Part shown: positions 29,781-41,444 of the stretch, piece by piece
Numbering within the stretch: position 1 is the first letter of the stretch
Layout of the letters: every line of letters starts with the position of its first letter
From: a virus
DNA: 64,000 nucleotides
Direction: 5' to 3' (one strand)
Virus record (IMG/VR): IMGVR_UViG_3300044673_000097
Location: 21,380-85,379 of that record
Made by a program: the position numbers and the translations under genes
The notes under the pieces: generated by a model
The model's database searches: none
What the model was told of the DNA's origin: nothing
The model's input: only the letters and a program-made list of their open reading frames with translations

Positions 29781-29953
29781 CTGCATCCAATCCAAGGCCG
29801 CGCATTGCAGCGACACCGCGCGGGAGTCAATCCGCCTGAGGCTCGCACTGCATCCCATAACCTTCCCACCGTGCATTGCAGCATCGACCCAGCGACCTGC
29901 GCAGCGGCGTCTCGTTCCTGCACCCCATGGCGCTCCCGCACACGCATTGCTGC
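29781..29953 (-). CRISPR. CRISPR-like mini-array: three imperfect repeats, two spacers (71-bp pitch)
   Basis: On the minus strand three units start GCWGCAATGC and end in ...GGRTGCAG: DR1 29953-29918 (36 nt), DR2 29882-29848 (35 nt), DR3 29811-29781 (31 nt). They are separated by unrelated sequences of 35 and 36 nt, and unit starts are exactly 71 bases apart. DR1 and DR2 share ATGGGRTGCAG at the 3' end. Each has terminal inverted words (CTGCA/TGCAG), the layout of type V-F repeats (GTTGCA...ATGCAAC). The repeats are diverged, and 71 is not a multiple of 3, so they are not coding repeats. The array is downstream of the Cas12f-like gene and on its strand. Confidence 0.6.
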
Positions 29954-29959
29954 GGGTGT

Positions 29960-30140
29960 CGTAGGACGCACGCGGTTCCAATGCGTTGCGAGATGGTCTG
30001 CGAGCGGTACTGATCCGCGACCCGTTGCCGGACCGCTTGGCTGTGGACCGCTCGCGGGTTGGCGAGCCAAACGCCTTTGGGCATTGCAGTATGCCCACGA
30101 TGCCCCGCCAGACGAACAGATTGTGCAGGGCTTCGTCATC
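29960..30140 (-). ncRNA. tracrRNA-like region beside the array (candidate)
   Basis: On the minus strand GGGCAT-ACTGCA-ATGCCC (30096-30079) is a perfect 6-bp hairpin whose 6-base loop is complementary to the TGCAGT at the 3' end of DR2. Type V-F tracrRNAs (for example the Un1Cas12f1 one) have the same design, a GC-rich hairpin with a UUGCAU loop that pairs with the AUGCAA end of the repeat. Further small inverted repeats (TTGG-CTCG-CCAA) follow before the first repeat. RNA boundaries are unknown. Confidence 0.45.
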
Positions 30141-30144
30141 GAAT

Positions 30145-30729
30145 TCACGCCGCAGGCTTGTGGAGCAATCCGTTGAGACGCTCGATCTCCGCCTTGAGTT
30201 CCCCGTTCTCCCTCTCGAGTTCCTTGACCCTCTCCTTGAGCCTTTCGACCTCCGATTGCTCCCGCGCTTCCTTGCGCACGGCCTTGACTTCCTGGCACGG
30301 CTTGCGCGCTTCGGGCGCAACGTCGCGTACGATCTGGCGGACCTTCGGCAATCCAGGCGAGCACCCTTCCTTGTCGATGTGGTGCTTGATTGCGGCGACC
30401 AGTTCCGCCTTGCGGGCGGGAGTCGATACCACAGCGGGATGAATCATCGCATGCGCCGCATCGGGGCCGACCAACTTCGCCACCTCGATTCCGTATTCGT
30501 CGATCTGCCTGCACACGTGGTTGTACTGGTGCAGACCGATCACGTTCGGAAACTCGCGCGTCAGGAATGCTGAGAACGTGGCGTGCTGCCCGAGCTTCCA
30601 CGTGCCCTCTTCCTCGATTGCCCGGAGCTGCACAAACACGTCAACGCCTGCGCTGTGCCACGTTGCCAGCAGCCCACGGACGCGATCGACAATCCCCTTG
30701 TACGCTCGCTCGTCGCTCTTCTTGCTCAT
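30145..30729 (-). CDS. Helical DNA-binding-like protein with C-terminal coiled coil, partner of the Cas12f-like gene
   Basis: The 194-residue protein starts MSKKSDERAYKGIVDRVRGL at an ATG that overlaps the Cas12f-like stop (ATGA). Residues 35-75 (GTWKLGQHATFSAFLTREF then IGLHQYNHVCRQIDEYG) resemble the helical 'lG..tFe.y......s...ay..i....' modules of ParB/HTH-like proteins. Residues 150-190 are a leucine-zipper-like coiled coil (VERLKERVKELERENGELKA). Translational coupling to the effector makes a joint function likely. I do not recognise the family. Confidence 0.6.
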   Translation of the reverse strand: MSKKSDERAYKGIVDRVRGLLATWHSAGVDVFVQLRAIEEEGTWKLGQHATFSAFLTREFPNVIGLHQYNHVCRQIDEYGIEVAKLVGPDAAHAMIHPAVVSTPARKAELVAAIKHHIDKEGCSPGLPKVRQIVRDVAPEARKPCQEVKAVRKEAREQSEVERLKERVKELERENGELKAEIERLNGLLHKPAA

Positions 30730-32231
30730 TGCACGACCTCCTGTTGCGGCGCCGTGAGCGCCTTGGTAACCCGGCCCTTCGTCTTCGCCTTGACCTTCTC
30801 TGCCACCTTGCCCGTGACCCCAGCGTGCCCCGCCTTCGCGAGCGCGTTGACGCATGCAACGATGTCGCGGTGTGCCTGGTGCTCGCACTTCTGGCACTTG
30901 AACCGCTTGACCACTTCGGAGCGCGTGAACCGTCGCCCGTGGTATTCGATCACCTCGACCCGCTGCGTGGCATCGAACAGATTTCCGGGGTCGGCATACC
31001 CGCACGCTGGGCACGTCTGCGAATCATACGCGACGTTCTTGATCTCGACTCGAACGCCGCGCTGCTTGCCCTCCCGATCGACGGCTTGCGCGAGTTCGTA
31101 GAACGGGAAGCTGTGAATCATGCGCCGCACTTCCTCGTGCGCCTCTCCTCCGGTCTTGCGCTCGAATCCTTCGCGCGAGTCCGTCATGTCCGGCCACAGC
31201 AGCAGCCCGACATTGTGAGCAAGGCACCACGCGATTGCGCCCGCCGCAATCTGTCGGATGCGCGTAGTCACGAACCGGGACTCCGCGTCCTCGAGATTCG
31301 TCACCGGGCGCATTCGGCGTTTGACCCCGTGGCCCTTGGACCCGCTGCCCATCGTGTTGATGCACCGCTGGATTGATGCGCGACGGTGCGCGAATCGTTG
31401 CCTCGCGACCACGATGTCTTCGCCGGACACGTTGTGCTCGAAGCCGTCCGCTGTGACGATCTGGACGAACCTCGACACGCCGATGTGCGCAGCGGCCACG
31501 CCCGTGGAGGTCACTTCTGCGACAGGCTCGCCAGACCATGAGATGAGGGCGAACCACTTTCGGCGGTTCTCGTCGTAGGAGATTCCCACGCGCCCGAGTT
31601 TCACCTCGCCCGAGACGAGCTTGCGCCACATTGCCTCGCCGTTCTTTCCGCACGGCGCGACGATGACGCGCGTGGCCTTCTTGCCTGCGCCCAACAGCGG
31701 GACGGTGAGCACGGCACGCGACGGCGGCCCCTCGACTTCGCATGAACGCGAGCGGGCGTAGAATGCGGCGGACGCGTGCCACGACGGGAACGATGCCCGG
31801 TTCGCGAGCAGGTCTTTCAGGTGCTCACCCGTGAACCGGGAGGCAATGTTGTCCATCGTCTCGGCCGTCCAGTATTCGGTCACGTGGACGAAAGCATCTT
31901 CCGGCATCGGGCGCGATTGGCGCTTCGGCTTCTCCCGCTCGGATTGCTCACGAGCAAGCGCCGTCGCCATCTCGTCATTCCACATGCGCTGCAACACCGG
32001 GCCGATCTTCCCGGTGAAGGCGTACTTTGCGGAGTTCCTGTCGTCGGCGCGTCGCTTGAACGCGTCGAGCATCGCCACGGCTTCGGGATACAGCTCACGC
32101 ATGGCCCGATTGAGCGCGGGACCGAGCGTCATGCGCATGGCACGAAGGCGAGGACCAACGTCATCCCACGACGCAAGCTCGGGCTTGACGATTTCGACCT
32201 TCAGCGTTCCGGCTAGCGTCTTGGATTCCAA
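30726..32231 (-). CDS. Cas12f-like (type V-F/TnpB family) effector, predicted nuclease-dead
   Basis: The 501-residue protein starts at a TTG with GGAGGTG six bases upstream. Its N-terminus, KVEIVKPELASWDDVG then LR...ALNRA (residues 11-43), parallels that of Cas12f (EIVKP...W..FG..LR...ALNKA). LVSGEVKLGRVGISYDENRR and KWFALISW (205-232) match the Cas12f WED/bridge region. The zinc finger CPAC (407-410) and CQKC (446-449) is intact. The RuvC triad is broken: RuvC-I has AAAHIGV (His249 for Asp) and RuvC-II has LLLWPDM (Pro347 for Glu); RuvC-III HRDIVAC keeps Asp456. Dead relatives (TldR, dCas12f) act as RNA-guided DNA binders, so target repression or activation rather than cutting is expected. 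Confidence 0.8.
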   Translation of the reverse strand: MESKTLAGTLKVEIVKPELASWDDVGPRLRAMRMTLGPALNRAMRELYPEAVAMLDAFKRRADDRNSAKYAFTGKIGPVLQRMWNDEMATALAREQSEREKPKRQSRPMPEDAFVHVTEYWTAETMDNIASRFTGEHLKDLLANRASFPSWHASAAFYARSRSCEVEGPPSRAVLTVPLLGAGKKATRVIVAPCGKNGEAMWRKLVSGEVKLGRVGISYDENRRKWFALISWSGEPVAEVTSTGVAAAHIGVSRFVQIVTADGFEHNVSGEDIVVARQRFAHRRASIQRCINTMGSGSKGHGVKRRMRPVTNLEDAESRFVTTRIRQIAAGAIAWCLAHNVGLLLWPDMTDSREGFERKTGGEAHEEVRRMIHSFPFYELAQAVDREGKQRGVRVEIKNVAYDSQTCPACGYADPGNLFDATQRVEVIEYHGRRFTRSEVVKRFKCQKCEHQAHRDIVACVNALAKAGHAGVTGKVAEKVKAKTKGRVTKALTAPQQEVVQ

Positions 32232-40435: not shown

Positions 40436-41444
40436 CGAAACCTCCAGCCCAGAACGGGTCGGTCGTGCTGGCCTTTCGGCCGGTTGCCGCCACGAGCAGT
40501 TCGTCGATCCGCTCGGCGGTGATCTCGACGAGTTCCTCGCCGGGCGGGTCGGGCTCGGGTTCGGGTTCGGGAATCCAATGCCCCGGCTCGTCGTCGGGCA
40601 ATGCCGGCGGTGAATCGACAAGCGCGATCGCCTTGTCGATGTGCTCGGCGTCCCTGAACACAAGGTCGACACCGACGTAGCGCTTGCCGTTCGTGCGAGG
40701 GTCTCTCCCCATGCGCCAGTCGTCGAGCAGGGTCCCGTCAACGGCCAGCCGCAACTCCTCGACGGAGTAGGTCTTGAGAGCGCGAGCGATGACGGCCCGG
40801 CGCTTGTCGTCGAGCTTGGCCTTGGGCGCTAGGTGCGCGCGCCAGTAGTCGAACACGAGCTCGACGGGCGACGGCTGGGCGGGCTTGCTCGCCACGGGCA
40901 GCGGCAAGGGCAGGTCGGCAGGCGTGACCTGCCTTCGACCCGATGACGGGGCCGCAGTCGAGTTGTCGCAACTCGACAGATCAATGGTCGGGGTCGGAGG
41001 TCCAGATCGGAGGTCGGAGGTCAGGCGCGAGGGTCTCGGCCAATCCCCGAGAGTCTCGCGAGGGTCTCGCGAGGGTCTCGCGAGGGTTTGCGTTTCTGGT
41101 TCTTTTTCGGCTAGTTCCGGGCCAGGGACTCGGGGCTTGGACGGGTGATCGATCCTCTGGTGCTTGTCCCAACCTCGGACGTGCCCGTATGGTTGGGAGG
41201 ACACCCGATAAAGGGTCACCAGACCCACGTCCGAGAGTCTCGCGAGGATCTCGCGAGGGTCTCGCGAGGGTGTCGCACACCAGAATACCTGCCCAAGAAG
41301 CCACGTCGGGTTCGCCCGAAAGTTGCCGTGGTCGTCGGCGAGCAGGAGCAGCCCGACGAACAGCCGGAACTCGTCATCCTTGAGCGATGCCGTCTTTTCG
41401 TCTTCGAGCAGCTCGGGCTTGATGGTCCGAATGCGTCCGCTCAT
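40428..41444 (-). CDS. Phage replication initiator (O/DnaD-like), containing DNA iterons
   Basis: The 338-residue protein has a winged-helix N-terminus: GRIRTIKPELLEDEKTASLK, then FRLFVGLLLLADDHGNFRAN and ILARLSDVGLVTLYRV. This is the usual start of phage replication proteins 'rirtikPeff.de..a..s...rll~igLw~~aD..G'. The centre is Pro/Ser/Arg-rich, and the C-terminal half has a conserved-looking helix FDYWRAHLAPKAKLDDKRRA. Two clusters of an 11-bp repeat lie inside the coding sequence (41029-41091 and 41233-41276), as origin iterons do in lambda O. Confidence 0.7.
   Translation of the reverse strand: MSGRIRTIKPELLEDEKTASLKDDEFRLFVGLLLLADDHGNFRANPTWLLGQVFWCATPSRDPREILARLSDVGLVTLYRVSSQPYGHVRGWDKHQRIDHPSKPRVPGPELAEKEPETQTLARPSRDPRETLGDWPRPSRLTSDLRSGPPTPTIDLSSCDNSTAAPSSGRRQVTPADLPLPLPVASKPAQPSPVELVFDYWRAHLAPKAKLDDKRRAVIARALKTYSVEELRLAVDGTLLDDWRMGRDPRTNGKRYVGVDLVFRDAEHIDKAIALVDSPPALPDDEPGHWIPEPEPEPDPPGEELVEITAERIDELLVAATGRKASTTDPFWAGGFDD
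41029..41276. repeat. Two clusters of GAGGGTCTCGC 11-mer iterons inside the initiator gene (candidate origin)
   Basis: Four tandem 11-mers occupy 41049-41091 (gagagtctcgc, two exact gagggtctcgc, gagggtttgc) with an isolated copy at 41029. Four more lie at 41233-41276 (gagagtctcgc, gaggatctcgc, gagggtctcgc, gagggtgtcgc). The unit contains the palindrome CTCGCGAG. Eleven is not a multiple of three, so the repeats are conserved as DNA and not as peptide. Iterons within a replication initiator gene usually mark the origin. Confidence 0.65.

Follow-up and report, generated by a model that had tools for sequence, protein, structure and literature searches.

Three related but diverged units, repeated at a fixed distance on the minus strand of a viral contig, raise the question of whether they form a CRISPR array and, if so, what kind of system the array would serve. 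They lie in the stretch of DNA analysed here (the window), 64 kb out of an 85,379-bp IMG/VR virus record, where the order on the minus strand is a 501-aa gene, a 194-aa gene, approximately 190 nt with no evident gene and then the three repeats. The repeats start at 29953, 29882 and 29811, a spacing of 71 bp; each begins with GCWGCAATGC and ends with GGRTGCAG, and the intervals between them are 35 and 36 nt. Repeat 1 (GCAGCAATGCGTGTGCGGGAGCGCCATGGGGTGCAG, 36 nt, 29918–29953) is followed by spacer 1 (35 nt, 29883–29917), repeat 2 (GCTGCAATGCACGGTGGGAAGGTTATGGGATGCAG, 35 nt, 29848–29882), spacer 2 (36 nt, 29812–29847) and a shortened terminal repeat 3 (GCTGCAATGCGCGGCCTTGGATTGGATGCAG, 31 nt, 29781–29811), all on the minus strand. 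The repeats were located both by motif match and by a blind scan. The motif combining head and tail occurs at these three places and nowhere else on either strand of the 64 kb. The blind scan, which sought three equally spaced 10-mers 55–90 bp apart with at most one mismatch between any pair, returned this trio alone from the window and nothing from 100 dinucleotide-preserving shuffles. A preliminary description of this DNA had reported the three units with the same coordinates, sequences and spacing, which the scans confirm, and had called the repeats highly divergent, which is borne out by their middles. The mutual divergence of the window repeats exceeds that among the repeats of the related loci described below, which are near-identical. 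A separate search of IMG/VR for pairs of GCWGCAATGC yielded 63 stretches, none with a related effector; most resemble coding-sequence repeats, and these candidates were rejected.

The 501-aa gene (30726–32231, minus strand, TTG start) encodes a Cas12f/V-U3-like effector, as judged by profiles, alignment and fold. The protein matches the Cas12f profile (3.7e-34), the Cas12u3 profile (8.1e-34) and a Cas12f1-like TNB domain (zinc ribbon), and these Cas12f/Cas12u3 profiles match all six of the family members scanned. AsCas12f was the best match by profile when the family alignment served as the query (1.1e-43) and also by fold (Foldseek, 2.7e-20, from a model of moderate confidence with pLDDT 70.8). 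The fold matches also include a natural dead Cas12f (9n9c). The units had earlier been likened to type V-F, and the presence of a Cas12f/V-U3-like effector next to the array agrees with that view.

Searches for relatives using one or two query sequences had found none. The family was instead seeded with Virus Rctr197k and a codon pattern for the GxGxKGHG motif, the latter giving the first IMG/VR relative. Six homologous phage loci were recovered, from Virus Rctr197k and five IMG/VR contigs, each containing the effector, an accessory gene and a CRISPR array. The arrays comprise 4 repeats in Virus Rctr197k (L002, KX853510), 3 in 3300027740_000040 (G001; L080/L084), 12 in 3300037225_000673 (L081), 2 in 3300049929_000026 (L082), 5 in the 392-kb contig 3300029893_000001 (L083) and approximately 10 in 3300035696_001034 (L085). 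The preliminary description had taken conserved intervals in related phages as the sign of some other kind of element, and we observed the opposite: the first spacers of the seven loci are unrelated (11–37% ungapped identity). Because six homologous loci combine the same effector and accessory gene with arrays whose spacers are unrelated, the window unit is, on comparative sequence grounds, a CRISPR mini-array, and its description as a CRISPR-type array is supported. In the L085 array (L085:2856-3460), 36-nt repeats (GTTGCAACGCCTGAAGAAGCAGTCAAGAAGTGCAAG) are separated by spacers ranging from approximately 9 to 38 nt, which is unusual for CRISPR.

Among five other phage records, one contains the terminase of the window phage and none contains its portal (0/5), which is why the module seems to travel between phages that are not related. 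A search of six phage records, possibly fragments, found neither Cas1 nor Cas2. No family member was detected in 84,980 bacterial and archaeal species genomes by a scan limited to the peptide patterns used, and for this reason the effector family may be mainly viral. The Virus Rctr197k effector (L002:4998-6401), a Cas12f relative lacking the RuvC-I aspartate, is annotated as a "transposase-like protein" and adjoins an annotated CRISPR. Alicyclobacillus phage MMB025 (L003:1880-2380) also encodes a Cas12f-like protein annotated as a transposase, with intact catalytic residues, and two small arrays lie 5' of its gene, their repeats differing from each other and each starting with GTTGCAA.

Aligned with intact relatives, the window effector has histidine in place of the RuvC-I aspartate and proline in place of the RuvC-II glutamate, and keeps the RuvC-III aspartate. 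The RuvC-I aspartate is replaced in all seven members, by histidine in the window, Rctr197k, G001 and L083 and by asparagine in L081, L082 and L085. The window is the exception at RuvC-II, as the other six retain the glutamate along with the RuvC-III aspartate. The intact D-E-D RuvC triad that defines type V-F was tested for and is absent from 7/7 effectors; we therefore do not file the clade as a full V-F member. With a support of 100/100 the seven effectors group as one clade apart from the outgroup, which has seven rows: six with aspartate at RuvC-I and one, from Ruminococcus, with asparagine. Since the residue is lost in 7/7 members of a single, fully supported clade, the clade is probably nuclease-dead, and one inactivation event would be the simplest reading of the loss, although histidine or asparagine at this site might still hold a metal.

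The 194-aa accessory gene (30145–30729, minus strand) overlaps the effector stop through an ATGA. Its sequence is weakly conserved (BLASTP 2.7e-8 between the window and G001, 8e-10 between Rctr197k and G001, and 0.002 between the window and Rctr197k), yet the gene is present in 7/7 loci, in the orders accessory-effector-array, effector-array-accessory and effector-accessory-array. Its presence in every locus despite the differing gene order speaks for functional linkage to the effector. The predicted structure is helical throughout, and its C-terminal part is a long helix or coiled coil (model pLDDT 87.4). In Pfam and the PDB the sequence matches coiled coils and leucine zippers, and its PHROG matches are mostly families of unknown function. 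Fold searches gave no match at E ≤ 0.001, a sequence search of 50,697 phage records gave none, and no domain was recognised beyond the coiled coil, including no sigma or other transcription domain. The protein is presumably a dimerising helper. In the G001 locus, a truncated fourth repeat (L084:7601-7640) overlaps what is probably the ribosome-binding site of the accessory gene, and expression of the partner could in this way be tied to RNA from the array.

The sequence preceding the array contains an element held at a fixed distance from it. The motif CTCGCA (29999–30004 in the window, minus strand) starts exactly 51 nt 5' of base 1 of the first repeat in 7/7 loci, within an 8-mer that starts at -53. 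Sixteen of 90 leader columns are identical in at least six of the seven loci, whereas 5000 random draws gave 0.66 such columns on average and never more than 5. The 40 nt separating the motif from the repeat are poorly conserved across loci, as are the repeats themselves, and because this gap, the repeats and the first spacers all diverge, recent common ancestry does not explain the fixed motif.

In the window the motif falls in a candidate tracrRNA core (30000–30055, minus strand; z -3.7), its arms lying at -102 and -47 relative to repeat 1. Its 9-bp stem pairs GCGAGCGGT (30055–30047) with ACCGCTCGC (30008–30000) and encloses an inner hairpin with a GCAA loop. In each member of the window clade, though weakly in L085, the motif pairs with an arm placed exactly at -102 and the helix ends at -47 (z -3.7 in the window, -2.0 in L081, -4.6 in L082 and -1.8 in L085), while the inner hairpin varies. 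L083 and Rctr197k have similar arms (GCGAGGGGT/ACCGCTCGC) farther upstream (z -5.5 and -3.4). Taken alone, the helix is modest evidence, since approximately 7% of random stretches of 260 nt contain a comparable arm pair; the strong part of the leader evidence is the fixed position of the motif. The AsCas12f1 tracrRNA has a comparable CCGAG/CUCGG stem. We regard the leader element as a candidate, unproven tracrRNA core; alternatively, it could be a DNA operator bound by the partner.

The preliminary description had also placed a tracrRNA-crRNA contact in a hairpin, GGGCAT-ACTGCA-ATGCCC. This hairpin exists (30096–30079, minus strand), and the letters of its loop do complement the TGCAGT that ends unit 2. 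The window repeats, however, pair with their own leader no better than they do with shuffled leaders or with leaders taken from other loci, and the hairpin lies outside the conserved leader element. A tracrRNA as such is reasonable to propose, the contact through this hairpin is unsupported, and the stem-loop of the window-clade leader is the better tracrRNA candidate. Of the overall interpretation offered earlier, the mini-array beside a Cas12f/V-U3-like effector is supported, and the specific tracrRNA contact found no pairing support. Over all loci, repeats pair with their own leader at p 0.04 (-110 leader), a result driven chiefly by L083 with no signal in the window, where the repeat-leader duplex energy fell within what shuffled leaders give. 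The fold of the whole window region was unexceptional (z -0.6) and an Rfam search gave no match. RNAalifold on the whole leader proposed only a weak 5-bp helix between CTCGC and the repeat end, which fails in the window and was rejected.

Neither the two window spacers nor those of the relatives had a convincing match in phage or plasmid collections, where the sole above-chance match was to the array of Rctr197k itself, and comparing spacers with the genomes of the other loci gave no convincing match. Within the L081 phage, spacer 10 has a perfect second copy flanked by repeats. This ectopic unit (L086:3964-4064, contig position approximately 27.96–28.06 kb) lies 12 kb from the array and consists of a repeat minus its first 7 nt, spacer 10 and a full repeat. 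Removal of its two repeats leaves one open frame through the spacer, with a zinc-ribbon-like start. It could be a self-target, a unit that has relocated or an assembly error such as a chimera.

What the module does we infer as follows, with a probability of roughly two in three for RNA-guided DNA binding without cutting that silences targets with the help of a dedicated partner. It would be a compact, phage-encoded CRISPR system descended from type V-F/V-U3, in which the array with its two spacers, together with the structured leader before it, would be transcribed on the minus strand and the resulting RNAs loaded onto the Cas12f-like protein. Having lost the RuvC site, this complex would bind matching DNA and leave it uncut, blocking transcription or replication of the target. 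The targets could be genes of the host, competing elements or genes of the phage itself. The coiled-coil partner would probably dimerise, and might assist the complex or alter its effect on RNA polymerase.

Several other explanations have to be weighed against this one. Sigma-factor-linked dCas12f systems are thought to bring RNA polymerase to promoters, and the effector could likewise be an RNA-guided activator, a dead protein recruiting its partner and thereby RNA polymerase to a promoter. The conservation of a dedicated partner in all loci and the natural dead Cas12f among the fold matches fit such a role, but the partner shows only a coiled coil, with no sigma-factor or other transcription domain, and the dCas12f match is weaker than that to AsCas12f; we consider activation unlikely. 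The window copy itself may be decaying, as its repeats diverge more than those of its relatives and its RuvC-II glutamate is lost too. That it is already a remnant, with a readable effector and an old, disused array, would account for the mutually divergent repeats, the shortened third one, the loss of the glutamate and the contrast with near-identical repeats elsewhere. Both genes are nevertheless open, and neither the repeat ends nor the leader motif nor the 9-bp stem is damaged, which makes a remnant rather improbable.

It is quite improbable that the effector is still a nuclease, with the RuvC-I histidine or asparagine supporting some cleavage of DNA or RNA in ordinary phage-borne CRISPR interference. 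Retention of the RuvC-II glutamate and RuvC-III aspartate by 6/7 members speaks for such activity; against it, the RuvC-I aspartate is replaced clade-wide, the window effector is without two of the three catalytic residues, and Cas12m with histidine or asparagine at the same site did not cleave dsDNA (PMC11013384). Hardest to credit is that the units are not CRISPR at all but arose by chance or are three sites, operators or iterons, to which a DNA-binding protein attaches. There are just three of them, they are divergent, and the partner has a leucine-zipper-like helix. However, homologous loci have canonical arrays at the same position, spacers are unrelated between loci where operators or iterons would keep their intervals, and no such trio arose in 100 shuffles.

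In its mode of action the clade most plausibly resembles Cas12m or TldR, and it is related to Cas12f. With type V-F/V-U3 (Cas12f, AsCas12f1) it shares the effector sequence family, fold and zinc ribbon, repeats of approximately 36 nt, a CRISPR array beside the effector and a structured RNA candidate before the array; the window repeat ends (CTGCA..TGCAG) also resemble V-F repeats. It differs in the clade-wide loss of the RuvC-I aspartate, in the dedicated coiled-coil partner and in having no Cas1/Cas2 in the records searched here, genes that are variable in V-F. Cas12m effectors (type V-M, V-U1) with H-D-D or N-D-D sites bind DNA uncut and act as roadblocks (PMC11013384), and the present clade likewise has histidine or asparagine at RuvC-I. 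Cas12m is reported to silence by binding rather than cutting (PMC11013384), behaviour that the present clade may share. Cas12m is nonetheless a separate lineage: the present effectors match Cas12u3/Cas12f profiles best, Cas12m2 first appears at rank 23 among the effector fold matches, and the present loci have a partner gene and a structured leader.

TldR is also a phage-encoded, nuclease-dead TnpB relative. It uses a single guide and is not known to have a CRISPR array, unlike the present loci, which have arrays in 7/7 cases plus an unrelated partner. Nuclease-deactivated Cas12f (PDB 9n9c, 9n9m) is similar as a natural dead Cas12f, but is a weaker fold match (3.7e-12, compared with 2.7e-20 for AsCas12f), and the conserved partner here is without the sigma domain of sigma-linked dCas12f. 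Virus Rctr197k (KX853510) shares the clade, accessory gene, leader motif and array with the window; it differs in keeping the RuvC-II glutamate, in its repeat sequence and in having the accessory gene 5' of the effector. A survey of huge phages found that most phage effector nucleases retain their catalytic residues (PMC7162821). A landfill survey described type V-like proteins of phages whose RuvC motifs were weak or absent, and offered binding without cleavage as one possibility for them (PMC12607003).

Whether these loci constitute a phage CRISPR subtype that trades cutting for regulation, combining a RuvC-I-inactivated Cas12f, a leucine-zipper-like partner and a fixed-distance leader RNA motif, spreading between unrelated phages and able to carry self-genome spacers, is in our judgement an evenly balanced matter. 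If so, phages would carry multi-spacer, non-cutting CRISPR systems, and natural RNA-guided gene control would extend beyond Cas12m, TldR and dCas12f. The loci would also add a new partner protein with a directly testable role and provide a source of compact natural dead-Cas12f proteins. Elsewhere in the window, at 41048–41087 and 41232–41276, there are two tandem arrays of an 11-bp unit (CGAGGGTCTCG), approximately 180 bp apart.
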